DNA from: Armatimonadota bacterium
GTDB lineage: Bacteria > Armatimonadota > Armatimonadia > Armatimonadales > Armatimonadaceae
Length of the DNA stretch: 46,305 nt
Direction: 5' to 3'
NCBI GenBank assembly: GCA_026392155.1
Contig: JAPLCP010000177.1
Coordinates: 1-46,305 of the forward strand
This document shows positions 6,966 to 18,208 of the stretch, in pieces. The notes under the pieces were generated by a model that saw only the letters and a list, made by a program, of their open reading frames with translations, was not told the DNA's origin and ran no database searches. Numbering within the stretch: the first letter of the stretch is position 1; each line of letters starts with the position of its first letter. A program made the translations under genes and the position numbers.

Positions 6966-8000
6966 ATGACTGTGATTGACCTTCGTAGCGATACCGTGAC
7001 CCGCCCGACACCAGCGATGCGTGAGGCGATGCTGGCCGCGCCTGTCGGGGACGATGTGTGGGGCGACGACCCCACCGTTCTGGAGCTGCAAGAGAGACTC
7101 GCCGCGCTCTCGGGGAAGGCGGCGGGGCTGTTTCTGCCGACGGGAACCCAGAGCAACTTGGCGGCACTGATGGCCCACTGCGAGCGCGGCGATGAGTATA
7201 TTGTCGGGCAGCTTGCGCACACCTACAAGTACGAAGGCGGTGGTGCCGCCGTGCTGGGCTCGATCGTGCCACAGCCTATCGAAAGCGAGCCCAATGGCTC
7301 ACTACCGCTGGCAAAGATCGCTGCCGCGATCAAGCACCATGGGCCAGGAATGGGGGCGCACTATGCCCGCACGAGGCTCCTCACGCTGGAGAACACGTTT
7401 CATGGCCAAGTCGTCCCGCGCGACTACCTCAAAGCGGCGACAGACTTTGCCCATAGCCGTGGGCTGGCGACGCACCTAGACGGCGCACGGGTCTTCAACG
7501 CTGTGGTCGCGCAGGGCATCACGCTGACTGAGGCATGCGAAGGTTTTGACTCGGTCTCGATCTGCCTCTCGAAGGGCCTCGGCGCTCCCGTCGGCTCCGT
7601 GCTCGTGGGCTCTGCGGAGCTGATCGAGCGCGCCTACCGCTGGCGCAAAGTGCTGGGCGGCGGCATGCGCCAGTCGGGGATTCTGGCGGCGGCAGGCCTC
7701 TACGCCCTGGAGCACAATATTGCCCGCCTCGCCGATGACCACGCTAACGCCAAGCTGCTCGCCGATGGGCTAGCTGCTCTTCCTATTCCCGTAAGCTACG
7801 CCACCAACATGGTCTTTGCCACATTCCCCGAGGCCCACTGTGAGCCACTCGAAACCTATCTCGCCGAGCGCGGGATGCTGGCCTCCATCGCCCCCGAGTC
7901 GCGCTTTGTCACGCACCTCGATGTCACCCCCGAAGCCATCGCCGCGTTTCTCGAAGCCCTCACGGACTACTTCGCCAAAGCACTTTCTGTAGGGAGTTAA
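6966..8000 (+). CDS. ltaE: Low-specificity L-threonine aldolase
   Basis: This PLP-dependent fold-type I enzyme cleaves L-threonine and L-allo-threonine to glycine and acetaldehyde in the cytoplasm. The 344 residues match the family length. Visible motifs are the N-terminal IDLRSDTVTRPTPAMREAM, GDDVWGDDPTV, the cofactor Asp172 in HLDGAR and the PLP lysine Lys203 in SICLSKGLGAPVGS. The gene stands alone and converges on the phosphoesterase gene. The two stop codons overlap in the palindrome TTAA at 7997-8000. Confidence 0.95.
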   Translation: MTVIDLRSDTVTRPTPAMREAMLAAPVGDDVWGDDPTVLELQERLAALSGKAAGLFLPTGTQSNLAALMAHCERGDEYIVGQLAHTYKYEGGGAAVLGSIVPQPIESEPNGSLPLAKIAAAIKHHGPGMGAHYARTRLLTLENTFHGQVVPRDYLKAATDFAHSRGLATHLDGARVFNAVVAQGITLTEACEGFDSVSICLSKGLGAPVGSVLVGSAELIERAYRWRKVLGGGMRQSGILAAAGLYALEHNIARLADDHANAKLLADGLAALPIPVSYATNMVFATFPEAHCEPLETYLAERGMLASIAPESRFVTHLDVTPEAIAAFLEALTDYFAKALSVGS

Positions 8001-10504
8001 GGGGTTGGATAGGGCTTGTCGCCGTGGAGGTTGTGCCAAAGCACGCGGTTGAGCGTGTTGAAGTCCGCGGCGTCCATCTCGCTCCAGTCGAGCGATGCAG
8101 AGAGGTCGTACCACTTTTGCTCCGACGGAGCGAGAGCGGCACGCGGCGCGTTCATGTCGTCGAGTTTGATGCGATTCGGCAGGTGGATATAGGGCGAGTA
8201 GTTGGGCGTGTCGGTGAAGCAGGCGGCCATGGGCGGCGTGTTGGCGTCGAACTTGTTCATCGGATCGAGGCCCAGCATCTTCTCAATGGTCGAGAGCATG
8301 GTCACCGTGGTGTAGAAGTTCGAGTCCACAAAGCCGCGCTTGACATAGGGCGAGTAGCAGGCAAAGACCGTCCGGTGGCCATCGACGTGGTCTGGCCCGG
8401 CTTGGGCATCGTCCTCGATCACAAAGATTGCGGTGTTCTTCCACTGCGGCGACTTGCTCACGGCCTCGACAATTCGCCCGAGCGCTAAGTCATTGTCGGC
8501 GACCATGCTCTTGGGCTTGGGGTACTCCGCAGAGAGCCCTTCCGTGTGATCTGATGGGAGCGAGAGTACCATCAAATTAGGCACCGTGTTGGCCTTACTG
8601 AACTTGGTGTACTCTTCGATAAAGATATCCGCCTTGACCTGGTCGCTCTGGAGCAGAGGCCAGTAAAGATAAGTGGGGTGGGCTAGTTTCTTAACATTGT
8701 GGACGCGTGGCACGGACTTGTAAGTAAACTTGTTGGTCCCCCGCGCCTGCCAGACCTCCAGCCAGTCCTTGGGTTTCGGCGTGATAATATTGCTGCCATC
8801 GTCGCAGAACTCCCCATAGATACGCACCGTCTTCTTTTTCTTCAGCGCCGCGTCCCAGAGCGCCCCCGATGATGCCACGCCCATCGGATCGTCACCATCG
8901 TCGGGGTAGGTGCGATAGCCGGTGTACATGTGCTCTAGGTAGTCGTTGGCCATCGCCGTATCGGTCCAGTTATGCCCATCGGCGGAGTTGGTGCCGCTGA
9001 CATAGCCATTGTCAAAGAGCGTAAAGCTTCGGGCGAGTGCGTGGTGATTGGGAGTCACTTCCTCCCCTAGGCCACAGAGCTTCGCGTCCCCATTGCCCTC
9101 CTTCATATCGCCGAAGACCTCGTCGTAGGTGCGGTTCTCTTTGATGATGTAGAGCACGTGCTTAATCTCGCCGTTGAAAACTTTGAGCTTCGGCGTGACA
9201 CGTGGCGCGTCCCAGTGATTGAGCTGCGCGACCTTGGCCGTGGCCGCCTTCAGATCAGAGCTGCGGTCAATCACCGAGATGCTTCCCTGGAAGTCATGCG
9301 CATTGCCCGGCTGCCCCAGCACCGTGCGTCGCACCGAGCCATTGCCCTTGGTGTTGAGGGCGAAAATACGCCCTCCTCCCCCAGCCCCCGGGTACCCTCT
9401 GGGTGCCAATCCTGGGAGGAGGGGAGAGGTGGGGGGAATGGCGAGGGCCATCGGGTAGTAGCCTGTGGGCCGGTAGCCCAGCACTTTTCCGGTCGCCGCA
9501 TCCACCTCCGCGACGGCATTGTCTCCGCCACACGCAACAAGCATCACCTTCCCTCCTCCCAGGATTGGGAGGAGGGCTAGGGAGGAGGGCATTGAGCCGA
9601 GCAACCGATTCTTGCCCCAGGTCAGCGGCCAGGTCGCCGTCACGGACTTCTGAGTCAGGTCAATCACGCTGAGACTGTCACTGGCGGCGTTGGCGACAAA
9701 GGCTCGATTGCCGTCGATCAGAAGCGCCGTGGGGTGCAGACCGACAGGGAGCTGGGTGGTGGTGCCACTGCCGCGCTCGATTATACTTACGCTACCCGTG
9801 GCAGTAAAGCCGCGCGGGTCACTGACGAGCCAGGCTCCATTGGACTCGGCACGCTCGCCGTTTTCCAGCGCATCCTCATCGGTAACGGGCCGTCCGCCCC
9901 AGTTGCTGGCAATCAGGGTTTTCTCATCGGGTGAGAGTGCGACGGTGAAGGGAAGTTTTTGGGTAGGTAATGTCCGGGTGGCCGTGCCGCTGGCAATGTC
10001 CAGCTCGGCGATGCAGTCGCGATCCATTAACGCCACAAAGAGCGTCTTGCCATCGCGTGTCAGGCACATTCCGCCGGGTCTAGGATTCCCCTTGCCGCCA
10101 AACTCCAGCTTGCGCCCCGCCGTCAGCTTCCCGTTTTCGTAGAGGCATTCTTGAACCACACCATTGCTCACACTAGCAAAGAGGCGCGTGCCATCGGGTG
10201 TCCAGAGCAGGCCATGAAAGCCCGCACCAGCGCCCAGCGGCACATCCGTGCCAGAGATCACGCCTGTTTCCGTCGCGAGAAAGACTTTATTCTGGCCCAG
10301 CACCGCCAGCGTCTTGCCGTCCGGATGGAGTGCGATGTCTACGGGACGGCCCTCAAAGGCAATCGTCCCCGGCTCGATGGTCTGCCCCGACGAGACAACA
10401 AACTGACCATTGGCCTGCTTTCCGAGCTTGCGGGTCTGGCTTGCCTGGAGCGTAAAGCCAACAGCCGCAACCCCCAACACTGCGGCGAGAAGAATTCTTT
10501 TCAT
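7997..10504 (-). CDS. Exported beta-propeller and phosphoesterase fusion
   Basis: The 835 residues start with a signal peptide (MKRILLAAVLGVAAVGFTLQA). An N-terminal YVTN/NHL-type beta-propeller follows (about 30-430, repeats such as PVDIALHPDGKTLAVLG and PTALLIDGNRAFVAN). The C-terminal half (about 460-830) is an alkaline-phosphatase-superfamily phosphoesterase: VLYIIKENRTYDEVFGDM, SADGHNWTDTAMANDY, FVIEDDAQAGPDHVDGHR. The metal-binding Asp/His residues appear present. Substrates of this fusion family are unknown. The ATG at 10504 is chosen because the signal peptide starts there and TATAAT sits 7 nt ahead. Two CCCTCCTCCC-type repeats lie in frame inside the propeller and encode Gly/Pro-rich loops near residues 305-318 and 356-378. 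Confidence 0.85.
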   Translation of the reverse strand: MKRILLAAVLGVAAVGFTLQASQTRKLGKQANGQFVVSSGQTIEPGTIAFEGRPVDIALHPDGKTLAVLGQNKVFLATETGVISGTDVPLGAGAGFHGLLWTPDGTRLFASVSNGVVQECLYENGKLTAGRKLEFGGKGNPRPGGMCLTRDGKTLFVALMDRDCIAELDIASGTATRTLPTQKLPFTVALSPDEKTLIASNWGGRPVTDEDALENGERAESNGAWLVSDPRGFTATGSVSIIERGSGTTTQLPVGLHPTALLIDGNRAFVANAASDSLSVIDLTQKSVTATWPLTWGKNRLLGSMPSSLALLPILGGGKVMLVACGGDNAVAEVDAATGKVLGYRPTGYYPMALAIPPTSPLLPGLAPRGYPGAGGGGRIFALNTKGNGSVRRTVLGQPGNAHDFQGSISVIDRSSDLKAATAKVAQLNHWDAPRVTPKLKVFNGEIKHVLYIIKENRTYDEVFGDMKEGNGDAKLCGLGEEVTPNHHALARSFTLFDNGYVSGTNSADGHNWTDTAMANDYLEHMYTGYRTYPDDGDDPMGVASSGALWDAALKKKKTVRIYGEFCDDGSNIITPKPKDWLEVWQARGTNKFTYKSVPRVHNVKKLAHPTYLYWPLLQSDQVKADIFIEEYTKFSKANTVPNLMVLSLPSDHTEGLSAEYPKPKSMVADNDLALGRIVEAVSKSPQWKNTAIFVIEDDAQAGPDHVDGHRTVFACYSPYVKRGFVDSNFYTTVTMLSTIEKMLGLDPMNKFDANTPPMAACFTDTPNYSPYIHLPNRIKLDDMNAPRAALAPSEQKWYDLSASLDWSEMDAADFNTLNRVLWHNLHGDKPYPTP
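9371..9436. repeat. CCCTCCTCCC-family element A, inside a coding sequence
   Basis: This runs from CCCTCCTCCCCCAGCCCCC to a purine-rich GGGAGGAGGGGAGAGG arm. It strongly resembles element D at 41853. It is in frame and codes for a Pro/Leu/Gly loop of the phosphoesterase protein's propeller domain. Confidence 0.65.
9551..9590. repeat. CCCTCCTCCC-family element B, inside a coding sequence
   Basis: A perfect 10-bp inverted repeat, CCCTCCTCCC (9551-9560) and GGGAGGAGGG (9567-9576), has a 6-nt loop and is followed by another GGGAGGAGGG. It lies in frame in the same propeller domain as element A. Confidence 0.65.
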
Positions 10505-10511
10505 GCCCGAA

Positions 10512-10517
10512 ATTATA
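10512..10517 (-). promoter_or_regulatory. Candidate leaderless -10 for the phosphoesterase
   Basis: A consensus TATAAT on the minus strand lies 7 nt before the ATG at 10504. No ribosome binding site separates them, so transcription would begin at or next to the start codon. The hexamer lies between the histidine kinase stop and this gene. Confidence 0.6.
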
Positions 10518-10533
10518 CCGGGTAGCACTCCCC

Positions 10534-12000
10534 TTATGGGTTAAGAGTTACCGTCACGGTAGTTCCTTCCCCGAGGACACTCTGAATCTCCAGCGTGCCG
10601 CCGAGTGCCGCCGTAATTTCTTTGCAGAGAGCGAGCCCTAGGCCGACCCCACCTTGCTCACGGGCGCGGGAGGCATCGGGGCGGTAGAACGGCTCCCCGA
10701 GGCGCTCCAAGTGCTCCGGCGCGATTCCCTCACCTGTATCGGTGACAGTGAGAGTCAGGCTTCCTGCCACACTCGCCTTGAGCATGACGTTTCCCTCAGG
10801 CGGGGTGTGACGCAGGGCATTGCTCACCAGATTCACCACGACGCGATGAAGAAGCTTGCTATCGGTGATGAATGGCTCCGGCGGGACATCGAGCACCACG
10901 ATTGCGTGCGGCGTGCTCTGTCCCGCCTCAGCGGCCTGCGCAGCCTCACTGAGCACCTCTTGTAGCGAGAGACTTTCTCTCTGTACCGGCAGGCTACCGT
11001 TCTCAGCACGCGCCAACAGCAAGAGATCTGAGACGAGTGTGTTAGCCCGATCCACGGTTTTATCCGTGCGGAAGAGTGCACGTCGCTGGCGCTCCGTGAG
11101 GGGATCGTCGTTTTCGAGTAAGAAGCTAGAGGCGGCTTTAATGACCGCGAGGGGCGTGCGAAGCTCGTGGCTCGCATCAGCGGTGAAGCGTTTCTGGCGC
11201 GTGAAAGCCGCCTCCATCCGCGAGAGCATCGCATTAAGAACCGTGACAAGCTGATCGAAAGTATCGTTGCCCCCGGGTTGCGGCAGGCGCAGCTCTAGGT
11301 TACTAGGCTGAAGCGCTGCCGCAGCTCGCGTGAGCTTGCGGATCGGGGCGAAGGCGATATCGGTGAGGAGTGCGCCCAGCAGGCCCATCAATAGGCCCAC
11401 GGGAAGGATCAGTACGGTGAGTGCTTGTTGAATTTCACGAAGAGCAGCATCGGTCTGCTCCAGGCTAGCGGCTGTCTGGAAGATACAGTCGGGCTGGCGT
11501 ATCGAGAAAACCCGGATCGCCTTACCGTCTTTGTCAAGCTCCTGCCGAAGATCGGTTCCCCGCTCTCGTGCCGCCGCTGCGCCTGCAACCGACCAAGGCG
11601 GCTCCGTCGGATTCGATGCCTGCCTCTCCAGCGGAATTCGACGTGGCTTGAGCAGTGCCGTCGTGCCAAAACGTATAACATCAGGGCCACCACCCGGCCC
11701 TCGCCCTCGGCCAAGATCAAAGCCACGGCCAAGATCAAAGCCACGGCCAAGATCAAAGCCTCTCCCAAAGTCAAAACCGCCACGCCCGCGCCCCCCACGA
11801 TCGCCAAATCCATCGCGGGGAAAGCCCGGCGGCGGCCCGTGGTGGAGCATAGCCTCTGCTTGTGACTTCACCGCGCGATCCACGGCGTTGTAGAGCACCG
11901 TGCGAATGCGGCTCTGCGCCAGGACAACCAGTGCGACCAGAGCAAGGCCACTAAGAAGGCCGTTGAGCAGCCGTGCACGCCACGTCATAGAGAGCTTCAT
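10534..12000 (-). CDS. Sensor histidine kinase with glycine-rich periplasmic loop
   Basis: The 488 residues contain TM1 (about 11-28), an extracytoplasmic domain (29-191), TM2 (about 192-214), a HAMP region (about 215-265), HisKA with phospho-acceptor His278 (FTADASHELRTPLAVI) and HATPase (N-box VVNLVSNALRHTPPEG, G-boxes DTGEGI and GGVGLGLALCKEI). The unusual part is residues 61-106 of the sensor domain, which are almost entirely Gly, Arg, Asp and Phe and include three copies of GRGFDL. The gene overlaps the response regulator stop by 4 bp. With the divergent glycine-rich protein it looks like an envelope-sensing system; the signal is not known. Confidence 0.93.
   Translation of the reverse strand: MKLSMTWRARLLNGLLSGLALVALVVLAQSRIRTVLYNAVDRAVKSQAEAMLHHGPPPGFPRDGFGDRGGRGRGGFDFGRGFDLGRGFDLGRGFDLGRGRGPGGGPDVIRFGTTALLKPRRIPLERQASNPTEPPWSVAGAAAARERGTDLRQELDKDGKAIRVFSIRQPDCIFQTAASLEQTDAALREIQQALTVLILPVGLLMGLLGALLTDIAFAPIRKLTRAAAALQPSNLELRLPQPGGNDTFDQLVTVLNAMLSRMEAAFTRQKRFTADASHELRTPLAVIKAASSFLLENDDPLTERQRRALFRTDKTVDRANTLVSDLLLLARAENGSLPVQRESLSLQEVLSEAAQAAEAGQSTPHAIVVLDVPPEPFITDSKLLHRVVVNLVSNALRHTPPEGNVMLKASVAGSLTLTVTDTGEGIAPEHLERLGEPFYRPDASRAREQGGVGLGLALCKEITAALGGTLEIQSVLGEGTTVTVTLNP
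11711..11764. repeat. 18-bp tandem repeat in the sensor loop of the histidine kinase
   Basis: Two identical 18-bp units (CCAAGATCAAAGCCACGG) at 11711-11728 and 11729-11746 are followed by a third at 11747-11764 that differs only in its last four bases. A degenerate unit follows. Each unit encodes six residues (GRGFDL), so copy-number change keeps the frame. Confidence 0.85.
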
Positions 12001-12692
12001 AGAGATCCACTGCCCTCCGGCTCCCGCAGAACATAGCCCATCCCATAGACCGTGTGAAAGAGCCGAGCACTCTCGGTGCGGTCGCTATCGAGCTTGCGAC
12101 GGAGCGAGACCATGTGAACATCAATCGTGTTAGAGCCCACTTCCGCATCGCCTCCCCAGATCGCCCGTAGCGCCTCTTTGCTCACCACATGACCCACACG
12201 CGCCGCCAGTGCCTCTAAAAGATCAAACTCACGCCGGGTGAGCGAGACCGCCTTGCCGCTCCGCGTCACTTCATGGAGATCCGTGTCTATCACCAGATCG
12301 GCCACTTGGATCGTGCGGCGACGCTGGAGCCGCTCTCGCCGCAGGAGCGCAGCGATGCGTGCCTTCAGCTCAGGAAAGGCAAAGGGCTTGGTCAGATAGT
12401 CATCCGCGCCCAGCTCCAGCCCGCGGACTTTTTCCGCCACTTCATCCAATGCCGTCAGCATCAAAATGGGGGTCGGATCGCGCCGATCACGCAGGCGGCG
12501 GCAGAGGCTCCAGCCGTCCATTCCCGGCAGCATCAAGTCAAGAAGAATCACGGCCCAGCCGCCCTCACACGCACGCTCAAAGCCCTCCGCGCCACTACGA
12601 CACCAGGTTATCTCATGCCGGGCAGCTTCCAGCCCCTCGACGATCATCTCGCCAAGTAGCTCTTCGTCCTCGATTAGGAGCAATCGTGCCAT
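11997..12692 (-). CDS. OmpR/PhoB-family response regulator
   Basis: The 231 residues contain a receiver domain (1-120; acidic pocket Glu8/Asp9, phospho-acceptor Asp52 in LLDLMLPGMDG, Lys102 in DYLTKPF) and a C-terminal winged-helix DNA-binding domain (about 130-225; LTRREFDLLEALAAR, TIDVHMVSLRRKLD, TVYGMGYVL). It is phosphorylated by the kinase encoded just downstream. The start at 12692 (MARLLLIEDE) is preferred to 12701 because it matches the family N-terminus and lies 7 nt after TACAAT. Its likely operator is the nested palindrome with 11-bp-spaced repeats in the divergent promoter region. Confidence 0.95.
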   Translation of the reverse strand: MARLLLIEDEELLGEMIVEGLEAARHEITWCRSGAEGFERACEGGWAVILLDLMLPGMDGWSLCRRLRDRRDPTPILMLTALDEVAEKVRGLELGADDYLTKPFAFPELKARIAALLRRERLQRRRTIQVADLVIDTDLHEVTRSGKAVSLTRREFDLLEALAARVGHVVSKEALRAIWGGDAEVGSNTIDVHMVSLRRKLDSDRTESARLFHTVYGMGYVLREPEGSGSL

Positions 12693-12699
12693 AAGAGCC

Positions 12700-12705
12700 A
12701 TTGTA
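12700..12705 (-). promoter_or_regulatory. Candidate leaderless -10 for the response regulator
   Basis: TACAAT on the minus strand lies 7 nt before the ATG at 12692, with no ribosome binding site between. The 12711-12769 palindrome begins 5 bp upstream of it. Confidence 0.5.
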
Positions 12706-12710
12706 GCGGC

Positions 12711-12769
12711 AAACCGTGAAGCAAACCTGAAGAAAATTCGGCGGAATTTTCACTATTGCTTCACGGTTT
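12711..12769. promoter_or_regulatory. Nested palindromic operator between response regulator and glycine-rich gene
   Basis: The outer arms are a perfect 14-bp inverted repeat (AAACCGTGAAGCAA at 12711-12724, complement at 12756-12769). Inside lies a second perfect 8-bp inverted repeat (GAAAATTC at 12732-12739, complement at 12744-12751). The left arm also carries CGTGAAG and CCTGAAG spaced 11 bp apart, the pattern used by OmpR/PhoB dimers. It sits between two divergent promoters, so it probably binds the neighbouring regulator and couples both directions. Confidence 0.65.
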
Positions 12770-12774
12770 AGCCT

Positions 12775-12780
12775 TACTAT
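12775..12780 (+). promoter_or_regulatory. Candidate -10 for the glycine-rich protein gene
   Basis: TACTAT lies immediately downstream of the palindrome. The -35 position would fall on the palindrome's right arm, as at promoters activated by PhoB-type regulators. A classical AGGAGA follows before the ATG at 12803. Confidence 0.45.
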
Positions 12781-12802
12781 GAGGGACAGGAGAACTGAAA
12801 AG

Positions 12803-13654
12803 ATGAACCGATTGGCTTTAACGTTTGTGGCATTGATGGTAGGTGGCGCTGCACTGGCACAGCCGCCTCAAGGTGGCGAACAAGGCGGTGGCTTTGGGGG
12901 CCGTGGCGGTGGCCGCGGCGGACGTGGTGGTGGCCAGGGTGGGCCGGGAGGCGGCTTTGGCGGCCAGGGGGGAGGCTTCCCTGGTGGGGGTGGTTTCGGC
13001 GGGATGATGGGAGGAATGATGGGCGGTATGGGCGGCCCTGGCGGGATGATGGGGATGATGGGGATGAACCGTGAGATTAGCGCAGCCAATGTCGCGCTTC
13101 GGATCATGGCGCTCTACCTGAGCCTGACCGATGCTCAATCCGGCAAAATTGCGCTCATTCGTGAGGAATCCCAAGACGCCATGCGTCCTCAGATGCCCCC
13201 GCGCCGTCCTCAGCAAGACCCCAATGCTGACCCCAATGCGGCCCAAAATGCTCAAGGTGGCGGTCGCCCCGATATGCAAGCCATGATGCAGGAGATGCAG
13301 GCTGCGATGCAGGAGATGCAAGCGAATATAGCCAAGGCGGAGCGTAAGGCAACAACAGACACCGATGCCGTGCTGAGCGAAGCGCAGCGCACCCGCTTGA
13401 AGCTGCTGATCAAGGCACTAAAAGGTCTGCAAGAGGCGGGGATTCGCCCTGAGGCAACTCTGAAGCTCATGCTCAATGAAGACCAGCTCACCAAGCTCGC
13501 TCAAGGTCGAAAGCCTGAGAGTGTGCTAAGCACCGAGCAGCAGACGATTGCGAAAGGCTACACAATGCCTATGGGCCGTGGTGGTCAGGGTGGCCCTGGG
13601 GGCGGCTTTGGCGGACGCGGCGGTGGCCAAGGGGGGCCGGGCGGCGGCGGTTAG
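12803..13654 (+). CDS. Exported Gly/Met-rich protein with Spy/CpxP-like LxxxQ motifs
   Basis: This 283-residue protein starts with a Sec signal peptide (MNRLALTFVALMVGGAALAQ). Residues 24-67 are Gly-rich (GGRGGG repeats), 68-88 Gly/Met-rich (GGMMGGMMGGMGG), 90-250 a helical core and 255-283 a second Gly-rich tail. The helical core contains LTDAQ (108-112), LSEAQ (191-195), LNEDQ (224-228) and LSTEQ (242-246), resembling the LTxxQ motif of the periplasmic chaperones Spy and CpxP, plus a Met/Gln-rich repeat (MQEMQAAMQEMQ). AGGAGA lies 9 nt before the ATG. It is divergent from a two-component system whose kinase also has a Gly-rich sensor loop, so a role as the target or feedback partner of that system is inferred. 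No family is certain. Confidence 0.8.
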   Translation: MNRLALTFVALMVGGAALAQPPQGGEQGGGFGGRGGGRGGRGGGQGGPGGGFGGQGGGFPGGGGFGGMMGGMMGGMGGPGGMMGMMGMNREISAANVALRIMALYLSLTDAQSGKIALIREESQDAMRPQMPPRRPQQDPNADPNAAQNAQGGGRPDMQAMMQEMQAAMQEMQANIAKAERKATTDTDAVLSEAQRTRLKLLIKALKGLQEAGIRPEATLKLMLNEDQLTKLAQGRKPESVLSTEQQTIAKGYTMPMGRGGQGGPGGGFGGRGGGQGGPGGGG

Positions 13655-13676
13655 CCTGCGCCTTGATTGCAGAGAG

Positions 13677-13716
13677 TCTCCCTCGTGAAAGAAAAATCAC
13701 GAGGGAGATTTTTTTT
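13677..13716 (+). terminator. Rho-independent terminator after the glycine-rich protein gene
   Basis: A perfect 12-bp stem (TCTCCCTCGTGA at 13677-13688 with its complement at 13697-13708) is followed by eight T. Confidence 0.95.
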
Positions 13717-13784
13717 GAAGGCAGAGAACTTTAGAGGAACCTAACCTCAGGATAGGAATCCACAGTAGGTAGAAAAGGGAAAAG

Positions 13785-14323
13785 ATGAGATTATTAGAAC
13801 TAACAAAATCACGCAAAGTCGGCATTCTGGCGCTTTCAGCAACGACTTGGCTGGCACTGCATGGCTGTGGCGGCGGCAGCTCGACCACCAACCCCGACAC
13901 CTAGCCCGACACCGAATCCCACAAACCCTCTACGACCGACTTTCCAGCCTGCAAACAGCAGGAGCCAGTATCACCGCTGTGACAATTGGCCCTACGGGTG
14001 CCTGGGCCGTTGTCTACGGAGGCGCGAGCCGAGGCTACTACACCAGTGGCGTTCCCAGCACGTTCTTCAGTCGGCTCAAGCGCCTCGTTGAGGACGGCAA
14101 CAGCGTCCGCCAGCTCGCGTTAGGTACCAGCGACTCGTGGGCGATGGTTGCCAACGAGAATATCTGCTATCTCAGTGGCGTTCCTGCGGCACTGACCACT
14201 GCCGTGACCACTATCCAAATGAGCAACCTGCGCATCAATGCAATAGCACTCGGTAGGTCCGGCAGCTATGCCGTGATCTATAAAAACAACACTTGGTACG
14301 CCAGCGCCACCCGTAAAAGATAG
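13785..14323 (+). pseudogene. Broken lipoprotein with repeated propeller-like motifs
   Basis: The ATG at 13785 (AAGGGA upstream) encodes a lipoprotein signal peptide with lipobox LALHGC, then GGGSSTTNPDT and a stop at 13902. The expected Pro/Thr linker (PTPSPTPNPTNP) continues in the next frame. The domain from LYDRLSSLQTAGASI to the stop at 14323 is in the third frame, so two frameshifts separate three pieces of one protein. The domain has about three units of roughly 40 residues sharing the pattern A-L/I-G-x-x-G-S/A-W/Y-A-V/M and Y-x-S-G-V-P. I do not recognise the family. Recent gene decay or sequencing error could explain the frameshifts. Confidence 0.7.
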
Positions 14324-14633: not shown

Positions 14634-17297
14634 TTATTCCCTGAGGGGATTTCCAGTAGCTAGTGCGTCGGCCATGGCTGTTTTAGTTCCCAGAAGCCGC
14701 CATTTTTTTTGGAACCCAGGATTGTCAGCGCGGACGATCGCAACGACTGCCTGGGGAAGCGAGAGAGAGCTTCGGTAGATCAGGTAGCGCGGCTCCCAGC
14801 GGGGCTGGAACTTGCGCTTGTAGGCGTGCAGTCCCTCGAAAGAGTAGAAACGCCCCCCACGCCGGAAGACCAGGTTGAGAACACGCTCTACGAGGGGATC
14901 GTGCGCGTCCTGTCCCACCCCTGAGAGTGGTGCCAGCCCCAGGTTGAAGCTCGCAAAACCTTGCTCGCGCGACCAGGTGATCAGCGCCACAAAAAGAAGA
15001 TCCATCACCCCCGACTTCGCGCGACGATGATGGCGCATCAGATCTATCGTGATCTCGGATTTCTGGTACTCGGAGACAATATTGGCAAAAGCAAGAATCT
15101 CCCCCGTGGCATCGCGGGCGACAATCACGGGGCCATCGTTGAGATAGGCTTCGTCGAACCAGCCCAAGGAGAAGCACTTCTCACCGCCGTGCTGCTGGTG
15201 GAGCCAGTCATCGCTGACGAGGCGTAGCTGATGGAGAAGCTCGGGCGCGTGCGGTGCCTGAAGAACCTCCGTAGTGTAGCCCGCCTTTGTCAGCCGCGTC
15301 ACGCTATTTCGCAGGCTCTTGAGCGCCCCACCAGCGAGCGTGAAGCTCTGCAGCTCCACCACCGCCTCGCTGCCAATACAAAGTGCCTGGAGCCCAGCGC
15401 TTCGGTAGGCCTCCAAGTGGTCAGGCAGCGTCTGATAGAACGCGGGATCCCAATCGTTAAGGGCACAGAACTCCACAAAGCCTGCAATCGCGGCCTCGCT
15501 ATCGGTCTTTGGACCAATCGCATCCCCCAGCGCGACGGCAAAACGCCCCACCAGAGCATAGCCCACCACAGAGCCACCCGGACTAAACCAGTAGAGCTTG
15601 TCTGAGAACAAGACAAAGCGCGCCAGCGACGACTCTCCATGCGCTTGGACAATTATCCGGGCACGGGCTTGCTCCGCCAGAGTGGCACGCTGGCGGAGAA
15701 GTACCGGCTGGAGCAGGGTAAAAAGCGCGTAGCCGATGGTCGTCGCCGCAACCGTGTAGATCGAGTCTGAGAACCAGTGACCAAAGCGCGTGATAGGCAG
15801 TGGGCCAGGGTCGCTGAAGGAGATAAACATCGCCAGAGTCTGCTCCAGCGCCGCACGAAAACCAAAGTCGTAGACGAAGTGCCTGTCTAAAAGCCAGAAC
15901 CCTAAGACACCGTAGATCAGCGTGAACCCCAGCGCCCAGAGAAGTCGCTTTAATCCCTGGTGCACCGTGGGGCCATCGGAGCGGGCAACAAAGCTCGCGC
16001 GGTAGAGCCAGAGCGCCATTAGCAGGCCCAGCGCCAGGGTCGCTTCTTCCCAGTCGAGCCCTTTTGAGAGGTGCGCCAGCACCGAGAGTACGAGAGCCAT
16101 CATGGTCAAACGGTGCGCGAGCTGCTTACGTCGCAGGAGCCCTTGTGCCAACAAAAGCAGGGCAAAGGCCGCCACCACCGTCGCCAGCCGCGAGCCATAG
16201 CGCACTTCGAGCGGCAGGTGATTGCGCAAGAAGGTCAGCCGCAGCCCCAGGGCAGGCAGGGTGCCACTCACCAGATTTACCAGCCCCATCAGCGCCGTCA
16301 TTGCGCTGATCACCCGCACGGCAAGCGCACGGCGCGAGCGGAGCCGCAGGTGTCTCAGTGAGAGCATCGCTCCCACGGCAAGCGGCAGCCAGAGCGCCAG
16401 CCCCCGAAACGCCAGGGTGACAGCGGTCGCTTTTACCAAGGGCACGCCCAGCGAGACAAACGTGACGGTCATCATTCCCTCGACGGCACCAAGGCCATCG
16501 GGGGTAATGGCCACGATCCAAAAAAGTAATCCCACGGAGAATGCCGCAAGCAGCGTCCCTGGCGTGAGCTGCAGGCCAAACGCCCGCGAGAGAAACGCAA
16601 GGCACAGCAGATCAACAAGATGCGCGGCTAGGGCCAAGCAAAGCGGCAAGATTAAACGGCGCGGCTGGGCAAAAAGCTCTCCCACACTCGCACGGGCGTG
16701 GCGTGCCTGCTCCACTCCCCAGCCAGTCTTGAGCCACCCCCGCGAGATCCCCTCAAGACGTGTCAGCAAGCGCTCCAGGCGCTGTGGAGCCACATGCGCC
16801 AGAACGAGCCCACTGCCCCAGACTCCGATAAGCACCAGCAGCCCCAGTGCCGCCAGAGCCTCCACAGGGCGCAGGACACTGTGCAGTGAGAGCGTGATCA
16901 GGCCCGCCAGCAGAATGACACCAAAAGTTGCCAAGTCGCAGACACGCACCAGAAGTAGCCCCGCCGTTGCTCGTGCAGGAGCAATTCCCCGCGTAGCCGC
17001 ATCCGCAACAAAGGCCGTCGCACCGGTTCCGGGGATCGTCAGGTTGATAAACAGCGATGTAAACCAGACGGGCAGGAGCGTCCAAAAGCGTGCTGGTGCT
17101 CCCACGGCTTGAAACGCCGCGGTATGCAAGGCAATCATCAGCACAAAGAAGCCAAGCTGGCAGGCCACGGCTCCCAGCACGGGCAAGAGACGCGCTTGCT
17201 CCAGAGCCACCATCAGCGCCAGGAGCTCCCGCCGCTGGAGCAGCACCGCGACGGCTCCTAAAAGAACCAGCACCAGAAGGGCGAGCTGTCGCCTCAT
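14634..17297 (-). CDS. mprF: MprF-like phosphatidylglycerol lysyltransferase
   Basis: The 887-residue membrane protein has an N-terminal LPG_synthase_TM flippase-type region of many helices (about 1-310), further helices to about residue 540, and a C-terminal cytoplasmic DUF2156/GNAT-fold domain (about 560-870; VGYALVGRFAVALGDAIG, SLRNSVTRLTKAGYT, MDLLFVALITWSREQG, SFNLGLAPLSGVG). MprF moves lysine or alanine from aminoacyl-tRNA to phosphatidylglycerol and flips the product, lowering surface negative charge. The amino acid used cannot be read. The ATG at 17297 overlaps the upstream esterase stop by 4 bp (ATGA). A Lys-rich exported protein follows. Confidence 0.92.
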   Translation of the reverse strand: MRRQLALLVLVLLGAVAVLLQRRELLALMVALEQARLLPVLGAVACQLGFFVLMIALHTAAFQAVGAPARFWTLLPVWFTSLFINLTIPGTGATAFVADAATRGIAPARATAGLLLVRVCDLATFGVILLAGLITLSLHSVLRPVEALAALGLLVLIGVWGSGLVLAHVAPQRLERLLTRLEGISRGWLKTGWGVEQARHARASVGELFAQPRRLILPLCLALAAHLVDLLCLAFLSRAFGLQLTPGTLLAAFSVGLLFWIVAITPDGLGAVEGMMTVTFVSLGVPLVKATAVTLAFRGLALWLPLAVGAMLSLRHLRLRSRRALAVRVISAMTALMGLVNLVSGTLPALGLRLTFLRNHLPLEVRYGSRLATVVAAFALLLLAQGLLRRKQLAHRLTMMALVLSVLAHLSKGLDWEEATLALGLLMALWLYRASFVARSDGPTVHQGLKRLLWALGFTLIYGVLGFWLLDRHFVYDFGFRAALEQTLAMFISFSDPGPLPITRFGHWFSDSIYTVAATTIGYALFTLLQPVLLRQRATLAEQARARIIVQAHGESSLARFVLFSDKLYWFSPGGSVVGYALVGRFAVALGDAIGPKTDSEAAIAGFVEFCALNDWDPAFYQTLPDHLEAYRSAGLQALCIGSEAVVELQSFTLAGGALKSLRNSVTRLTKAGYTTEVLQAPHAPELLHQLRLVSDDWLHQQHGGEKCFSLGWFDEAYLNDGPVIVARDATGEILAFANIVSEYQKSEITIDLMRHHRRAKSGVMDLLFVALITWSREQGFASFNLGLAPLSGVGQDAHDPLVERVLNLVFRRGGRFYSFEGLHAYKRKFQPRWEPRYLIYRSSLSLPQAVVAIVRADNPGFQKKWRLLGTKTAMADALATGNPLRE

Positions 17298-18208
17298 GCC
17301 TCCGATTGCCTCCACCACTGCCCCAAGAGCGGCAATGCGGCCAAGAAGTGCTTGCTCCAGAAGCTCCACTTATGGCCCCCCGTATCACGATCTAGCTTGA
17401 CGGTCGCTCCTGCCCCCCGTGCAACCGTGACAAACCCCACAGCATCGCCGATCAGATCCGCGTCATCGTCGTTGCCCACGCTGACTAAGAAATGGAGCTT
17501 CTTCCGGGTTTCAGGAGCCACGCGCCGAAGCTGCTCAACAGGCGAGTTGGCACTCCGTAAAGCCGCATCGGTGCCAAAGATATCCGTATCATCACCCCAG
17601 TCGTCTTTGACCCGCAGATCTCCGGAGAAGACAAGCGCACTCTGGAAGCGCTCGGGGTGGCGGACAGCGAGATTGGCCGCACCGTAGCCCCCCTCCGAGA
17701 GCCCCCCGATGGCCCAGAGCGCGAGGTTGGCGGTGGCACGGTAGCGTGTCTCTAAGAACTGCGAGAGATCCCGCACGATTGCCGTCTCCATATTACACTT
17801 CCCCCCCAGCGCATCGGCCCACTCCGAGCCGCCTTTGTAGAAAGGCCCATGGCCATCGGGAACGGCGACAAGGCAGGGTGGCAGCGTGCCTGCCGCGATT
17901 GCTTTATCGATTGCGCGGTGCACATCACCTTCGTAGAGCCAGTCAATGGGCTCGCCCGGTGAGCCGTGCAGAAGCACCAGCACCGGATAGCGCCGGGTGG
18001 GGTTTTGCGCAAAGCCCGGCGGCGTGTAGATAAAGACCGAGCGGCTCTCCCCCAGCGCGGGTGAGGAAAACTGCGTCTTCTCCAGTTTCCCAGAGAGCTT
18101 CTGGCCCAGTACCTGTCGCTCATGAAAGACGCGAAAAATATCCGCATGGGCCGGGGCACTTATGAGAAGCGGGAGTGCGGCAAAGGCAAGTAGAGAAAGT
18201 CGTTTCAT
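17294..18208 (-). CDS. Exported esterase of the Fes/esterase D type
   Basis: The 304 residues comprise a Sec signal peptide (MKRLSLLAFAALPLLISAPAHA) and an alpha/beta-hydrolase domain of the enterochelin-esterase/esterase D family. Visible features are RSVFIYTPPGF, VLVLLHGSPGEPIDWLYEG, PCLVAVPDGHG, nucleophile Ser171 in GGLSEGGYGA and a C-terminal catalytic His in GGHKWSFW. Substrates in this family range from siderophore esters to acylated sugars, and no specificity can be read here. AGGAG lies 5 nt before the ATG. It overlaps the mprF start by 4 bp, so the two are translationally coupled, which suggests a cell-envelope role. Confidence 0.88.
   Translation of the reverse strand: MKRLSLLAFAALPLLISAPAHADIFRVFHERQVLGQKLSGKLEKTQFSSPALGESRSVFIYTPPGFAQNPTRRYPVLVLLHGSPGEPIDWLYEGDVHRAIDKAIAAGTLPPCLVAVPDGHGPFYKGGSEWADALGGKCNMETAIVRDLSQFLETRYRATANLALWAIGGLSEGGYGAANLAVRHPERFQSALVFSGDLRVKDDWGDDTDIFGTDAALRSANSPVEQLRRVAPETRKKLHFLVSVGNDDDADLIGDAVGFVTVARGAGATVKLDRDTGGHKWSFWSKHFLAALPLLGQWWRQSEA

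Follow-up and report, generated by a model that had tools for sequence, protein, structure and literature searches.

A conserved Cpx/Bae-like two-component locus of Armatimonadota with a divergent Spy/CpxP-family gene and a putative shared promoter code

The window analysed here is a stretch of 46,305 nucleotides from an Armatimonadota bacterium (contig JAPLCP010000177.1, assembly GCA_026392155.1). It contains the genes of a sensor histidine kinase and its response regulator and, divergently oriented, a gene for an exported protein, all three at the places given by a first-pass annotation of this DNA. That annotation had likened the arrangement to CpxA/CpxR/CpxP or BaeSR/Spy, with which Pfam and profile searches and, weakly, a fold search agreed. 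Throughout, G000 denotes the genome of the window and G001 a sister species of the same genus; C stands for contig and L for surveyed locus. The three genes are:

10534..12000, minus strand: sensor histidine kinase of 488 amino acids; Pfam domains HAMP, HisKA and HATPase_c all above cut-off; AlphaFold2 model
11997..12692, minus strand: response regulator of the OmpR/PhoB type with Pfam domains Response_reg and Trans_reg_C; likely start at ATG 12692, mRNA probably leaderless
12803..13654, plus strand: exported protein of 283 amino acids of the LTxxQ (Spy/CpxP) family, identified by Pfam, by profile matches to Spy and CpxP in the PDB and by AlphaFold2

Two gene starts were corrected. The start of the exported-protein gene was assigned to ATG 12803 because AGGAG is located just upstream and because conservation with the sister species begins at MNRLALTF. 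The regulator likely starts at ATG 12692, since the -10 hexamer TACAAT overlaps the upstream ATG. The TACAAT-N7-ATG spacing is kept in both the window and G001, which suggests a leaderless regulator mRNA.

The exported protein consists of a signal peptide, a Gly-rich tract, a helical core and a Gly-rich tail. As had been annotated, either end of the protein holds Gly-rich blocks, and its LTxxQ-like motifs number exactly four (LTDAQ, LSEAQ, LNEDQ and LSTEQ). In the AlphaFold2 model most residues of the helical core reached a predicted local distance difference test score (pLDDT) of at least 90, and nearly all of residues 1-78 as well as residues 259-277 scored below 50. Comparison with the hidden Markov model LTXXQ (PF07813; cut-off 24.3 bits), which had been proposed as a check, was passed by the G001 ortholog with 37.1 bits; the window protein scored 21.3 bits alone, below the cut-off, and 25.5 bits when searched with neighbouring stretches. 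A profile built from 15 relatives and run against PDB sequences matched Spy (3.8e-5) and CpxP (0.1). STV, Spy and CnrX were the leading family matches in Foldseek, with probabilities of 0.99 for STV and 0.85 for Spy and weak E-values (0.28 and 1.6, respectively). By sequence comparison, the exported protein belongs to the LTXXQ (Spy/CpxP) family. It contains 8.6% Met, including GGMMGGMM runs (most relatives have only 3-5% Met), and neither His nor Cys, and no relatives were found in viral contigs. Spy, whose expression is induced via Bae and Cpx, is a chaperone that works independently of ATP (PMC8144458); chlorite oxidises its methionines (PMC12503329).

In the kinase, a first transmembrane helix is followed by a disordered Gly-rich tract, a small alpha/beta sensor domain, a second transmembrane helix and the HAMP, HisKA and HATPase_c domains, as deduced from Pfam and AlphaFold2. 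The model comprises the first transmembrane helix at residues 5-54, a disordered stretch at residues 58-109 (pLDDT below 50) and a small domain at residues 114-180 which leads into the second transmembrane helix. The corresponding features are:

11674..11829, minus strand: kinase tract rich in Gly, Arg, Asp and Phe (residues 58-109), defined by pLDDT below 50 and by composition; hypervariable in relatives
11708..11760, minus strand: perfect 18-bp tandem repeat of 2.9 copies which codes for the GRGFDL repeats (Tandem Repeats Finder, 100% match)
11461..11661, minus strand: small folded periplasmic sensor domain (residues 114-180; strand, helix, three strands) in the AlphaFold2 model; the pattern PWD..G..RV.S..VVQ is conserved in relatives

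A composition count gave 87% Gly, Arg, Asp and Phe for residues 61-106, with GRGFDL repeats as annotated. The Gly-rich composition of this loop is real, but it is not peculiar to the window kinase: many related kinases carry hypervariable Gly/Pro-rich inserts at this position. The G001 kinase lacks the GRGFDL repeat and retains a Gly/Pro/Arg-rich linker; the repeat is a lineage-specific DNA repeat. Given its disorder and its position, the tract is predicted to be a flexible tether that connects the sensor domain to the first membrane helix. A sequence profile of this domain gave no meaningful match in the PDB. A paralogous kinase in the same genome (L125, 4900-6373, on C98) appears to be N-terminally truncated, with in-frame stops upstream, whereas its relative on C3 of G001, which has a Gly-rich loop, is full length; the truncation reflects either an assembly error or real decay.

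To determine how widespread the arrangement is, about 100 loci of related kinases across Armatimonadota were surveyed, 93 of which had a measurable kinase. The nearest named relatives of the window kinase in public genomes come from Armatimonadetes, Capsulimonas and Chthonomonas. The sister species has the same layout, its kinase and exported protein being 68% and 76% identical to those of the window, and the same divergent layout is present in G007 and in a paralogous locus on C64 of the window's own genome. Among the 93 kinases, 22 have an LTxxQ gene within 1.7 kb, either divergent or downstream. The Capsulimonas operon (L007) encodes regulator, kinase, a membrane fusion protein, a MacB-type permease, an LTxxQ-like protein (called by its motifs only and without a Pfam match) and an ATP-binding cassette (ABC) ATPase. 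As judged by this comparison, the layout is real and conserved, and is probably that of a Cpx/Bae-like circuit.

The region between the regulator and exported-protein genes contains, at 12716-12764, two inverted copies of a tandem TGAAG box resembling TGAAGCAAnnnTGAAG. Both have an 11-bp period and are located 10 nt from a -10 hexamer:

12716..12731, minus strand: putative operator A, TTCAGGTTTGCTTCAC, facing the regulator gene; conserved in G001, with the same box upstream of the G009 regulator
12700..12705, minus strand: TACAAT, the regulator promoter's -10 hexamer, separated from operator A by 10 nt; read from the sequence and identical in G001
12749..12764, plus strand: putative operator B, TTCACTATTGCTTCAC, facing the exported-protein gene; conserved in G001, the period-11 motif being present in 10/10 divergent loci
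12775..12780, plus strand: TACTAT, the exported-protein promoter's -10 hexamer, separated from operator B by exactly 10 nt; supported by counts of TAnnnT spacing

Toward the exported-protein gene the window thus reads TTCAC-N6-TTCAC-N10-TACTAT, and toward the regulator gene there is a slightly degenerate copy with TACAAT. Both operators were kept in G001 while the intervening sequence diverged. The exact box TGAAGCAAnnnTGAAG has six matches in 12 genomes of the family, four of which belong to the system: those in G000 and G001, one upstream of an unlinked LTxxQ ortholog in G008 and one upstream of the G009 regulator. The other two (G000 C51 and G008 C726) were set aside as chance matches since they lie inside genes.

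The generalised motif TTCAY-N6-TTCAY occurs in all ten divergent intergenic regions, with 12 sites as compared to 0.036 expected from shuffled sequences and 0-2 sites at other spacings. Better tests are the count in operons without a partner gene and the spacing to the -10 hexamer. The former provides an independent check: the motif was found upstream of 19 of 48 regulator-kinase operons that lack a detected LTxxQ neighbour, compared with about 0.14 per control spacing. As to the latter, a TAnnnT hexamer was present exactly 10 nt downstream of the motif at 14 of 25 regulator-facing and five of eight LTxxQ-facing sites, and the distribution of spacings peaked at 10 nt. The composite promoter pattern had 79 matches in 19 genomes of the class and four for a reversed control; an LTxxQ gene in an unlinked position and the gene of a MacA-type membrane fusion protein are among its further targets. 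A motif 10 nt from the -10 hexamer is the geometry of class II activation of the PhoB/OmpR type. A scan for sigma-70 promoters reported neither of the two proposed here, an expected outcome where a promoter depends on an activator and lacks a -35 box. Taken from comparison of genomes, the promoter code is unusually clear, and, given the geometry of box and -10 hexamer and its recurrence across loci, the regulator very probably activates both itself and the divergent LTxxQ gene.

We consider it likely that the locus forms a Cpx/Bae-like envelope-stress circuit in which the regulator activates itself and its partner gene, the output is a protein of the Spy/CpxP type and the Gly-rich tracts are disordered spacers. 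An envelope signal would act on the small periplasmic domain of the kinase, hung on its flexible Gly-rich tether, and the kinase, as is familiar from this protein family, would phosphorylate the OmpR-type regulator. The latter would then bind the tandem TTCAY half-sites, which have an 11-bp period and lie 10 nt from the -10 hexamer, in the manner of PhoB/OmpR class II activation, and would switch on its own operon and the divergent exported gene, a step for which the comparative evidence is strong. The exported all-helical protein would most likely act as an ATP-independent periplasmic chaperone and, like CpxP, it may also damp the kinase. The Gly-rich arms of this protein, like the kinase's Gly tract, would serve as disordered spacers.

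Several observations weigh against this interpretation. The test on divergent loci is partly post hoc because the motif was first seen in them. In loci where regulator, kinase and LTxxQ gene lie on the same strand, the motif was absent upstream of the regulator in all seven cases (0/7), and the promoter code is therefore not valid for every locus. Only two of 40 LTxxQ genes retrieved by Pfam search are preceded by the motif. No LTxxQ gene was found near the G009 kinase, and none was detected at E <= 0.001 in that incomplete genome. Finally, the best Foldseek E-value of the exported protein was only 0.28.

Whether the exported protein feeds back on the kinase divides the proposed circuit from its closest alternative, in which the protein is a Spy-like chaperone output that never regulates the kinase and the neighbourhood reflects co-regulation. 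The wiring is otherwise identical, so that confidence in the two overlaps, and we rate the version without feedback slightly below an even chance. It is favoured by G008 and G011, in which an LTxxQ gene with the shared operator is located away from the kinase as spy is in E. coli, and by Capsulimonas and G011, in which related kinases lie beside MacAB-type efflux genes, reminiscent of a Bae-like output regulon. On the other hand, the gene recurs in close divergent pairing with the kinase operon, as is seen for CpxP, which binds and silences its kinase CpxA (PMC4160245). A different function might be read from the NCBIfam searches, whose best matches of kinase and regulator were the heavy-metal subfamilies cztS_silS_copS (TIGR01386, CusS/CopS) and cztR_silR_copR. 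Together with the GGMMGGMM runs and Met content of the exported protein and the presence of CnrX among its weak fold matches, they could indicate a heavy-metal circuit, with a sensor of the CusRS/CopRS type and a Met-rich, Cu(I)- or Ag(I)-binding exported protein in a role like that of ZraP or CnrX. Both scores, however, are below their cut-offs (209 vs 292.55 bits for the kinase, 202 vs 279.2 bits for the regulator), the Met-richness is not maintained in most relatives, and no metal-efflux genes were found among the neighbours read in the window. The absence of His and Cys ligands disfavours a metal sensor of the ZraP/CnrX type, and the heavy-metal reading was rejected as improbable.

The first-pass annotation had proposed a direct interaction between the kinase's Gly tract and the Gly-rich ends of its exported partner, or the sensing of a common surface polymer by both. 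Co-occurrence was examined in the 93 kinases, in 17 phylogenetically independent discordant pairs and by independent contrasts. Without correction, kinase loops were somewhat richer in Gly when an LTxxQ neighbour was present (median 12 vs 8 Gly per 40 amino acids, p = 0.008), and at some loci of other classes (L012, L294, L284) both Gly features occur together. After phylogenetic correction no significant association remained: ten independent pairs were for and six against the coupling (p = 0.17), and contrasts of kinase Gly with partner Gly gave r = 0.23 (p = 0.31). Counter-examples exist in both directions. The case that the annotation itself had named as contradicting its idea, a Gly-poor kinase loop with a Gly-rich exported partner, is found in the paralogous C64 locus of the same genome (L128, at most 4 Gly per 40 amino acids; partner 30% Gly), and L136 and L249 are similar; conversely, a partner gene is missing beside many Gly-rich kinases, and those of L273, L277 and L309, with 17-18 Gly per 40 amino acids, have no LTxxQ neighbour. 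Moreover, both Gly tracts are predicted to be disordered, and the GRGFDL repeat is lineage-specific at the DNA level. Gly-rich LTxxQ proteins are also encoded in the same genome away from any such kinase (C218, C48). The tracts vary freely with no sign of a matched binding pair, and the coupling was dismissed as highly improbable. In the simplest reading both proteins carry freely evolving disordered spacers, which are common in exported proteins of these bacteria; neighbouring genes can share low-complexity composition without being coupled.

Related promoter sequences were observed at further genes. A second 16-mer, TTCATGACTTCTTCAY, with the same spacing to TAnnnT, recurs in G000 and G001 (e.g. 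L375, L377, L378, L380, L381, L382, L410-L412). Among the products of genes behind it are a YHYH protein, lipoprotein-like proteins and a di-haem oxidoreductase. A few copies lie inside open reading frames, and the set probably answers to a paralogous regulator. In both species a gene that looks HemA-like, going by its sequence only, stands behind a related composite promoter, TTCATGCCTTCTTCAC / TTCATGCGCTCTTCAT (L376 on G000 C179; L383 on G001 C2). In relatives from the order, the composite promoter precedes exported Gly/Pro-rich proteins (L389, L395, L398, L400, L407), with DUF5666 above cut-off at L398 and weak at L389 and L400. Di-haem oxidoreductases (DHOR) are found behind it in several genera (L406, L412, L413), and membrane fusion proteins of MacAB-type pumps, encoded downstream of related kinases, own a copy of it at L384 (identity confirmed by Pfam, as L131) and L390. 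A broader and rather doubtful proposal would be that across the phylum the regulator family commands, through one promoter syntax, exported Gly/Pro-rich proteins whose folds are unrelated (LTxxQ, DUF5666 and others) as well as MacAB-type efflux and di-haem proteins, and that these form a dedicated, Gly-rich proteome of the envelope, the Gly-rich inserts of the kinases sampling the same envelope environment.

The exported-protein gene is followed by a hairpin which was found by folding and missed in the sigma-70 scan:

13671..13714, plus strand: intrinsic terminator hairpin of 18 pairs with a T-run, 3' of the exported-protein gene; fold of -27.8 kcal/mol, z = -6.2

A search of positions 10300-14000 against Rfam gave no match. 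The neighbouring genes, both on the minus strand, code for a lysyl-phosphatidylglycerol synthase (MprF-like; 14634-17369) and a phosphoesterase whose N-terminal part is propeller-like (7997-10528).

We know of no description of envelope-stress signalling in Armatimonadota, a little-studied phylum, and a literature search yielded no paper on such a system, or on envelope-stress signalling, in this phylum. The comparison provides a precise, testable promoter code, TTCAY-N6-TTCAY-N10-TAnnnT, for an Armatimonadota regulator family with a Spy/CpxP-like output. With such a code, regulons should become readable from the genomes of these mostly uncultured bacteria.

Among known systems, ZraP (ZraSR) and CnrX belong to the same helical superfamily as the exported protein, and CnrX was among its weak Foldseek matches; they differ from it in their His or Cys ligands. 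CusRS/CopRS/SilRS are the nearest NCBIfam subfamilies of kinase and regulator, whereas the window system misses the subfamily cut-offs and has no adjacent metal-efflux genes. With BaeSR/Spy of Escherichia coli it shares an exported protein that is nearer to Spy than to CpxP by profile, and MacAB-type efflux genes belong to relatives of the regulon, much as Bae controls MdtABC efflux. Unlike in that system, the exported gene of the window is adjacent and divergent, and the kinase scores below the cut-offs of the BaeS equivalogs (NF012163, 158 vs 500 bits; NF007837, 126.9 vs 603 bits). With respect to CpxA/CpxR/CpxP of E. coli, the window kinase is likewise below the CpxA cut-off in NCBIfam (126.5 vs 486 bits) and has a disordered Gly insert ahead of its sensor domain, the exported protein differs by its Gly-rich arms and its four LTxxQ-like motifs, and TTCAY-N6-TTCAY takes the place of the CpxR-type GTAAA repeat, which is absent from the window's intergenic region. 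The layout of the sensor resembles that of the PAS-type sensor of CpxA (PMC11078701), although sequence profiles show no PDB relative. Common to both systems are a kinase with an OmpR-type regulator and a divergent gene for a periplasmic protein of the LTxxQ family, with its promoter in the intergenic region that it shares with the regulator gene; the window has this Cpx trait in common with G001, G007, the C64 paralog and further loci.

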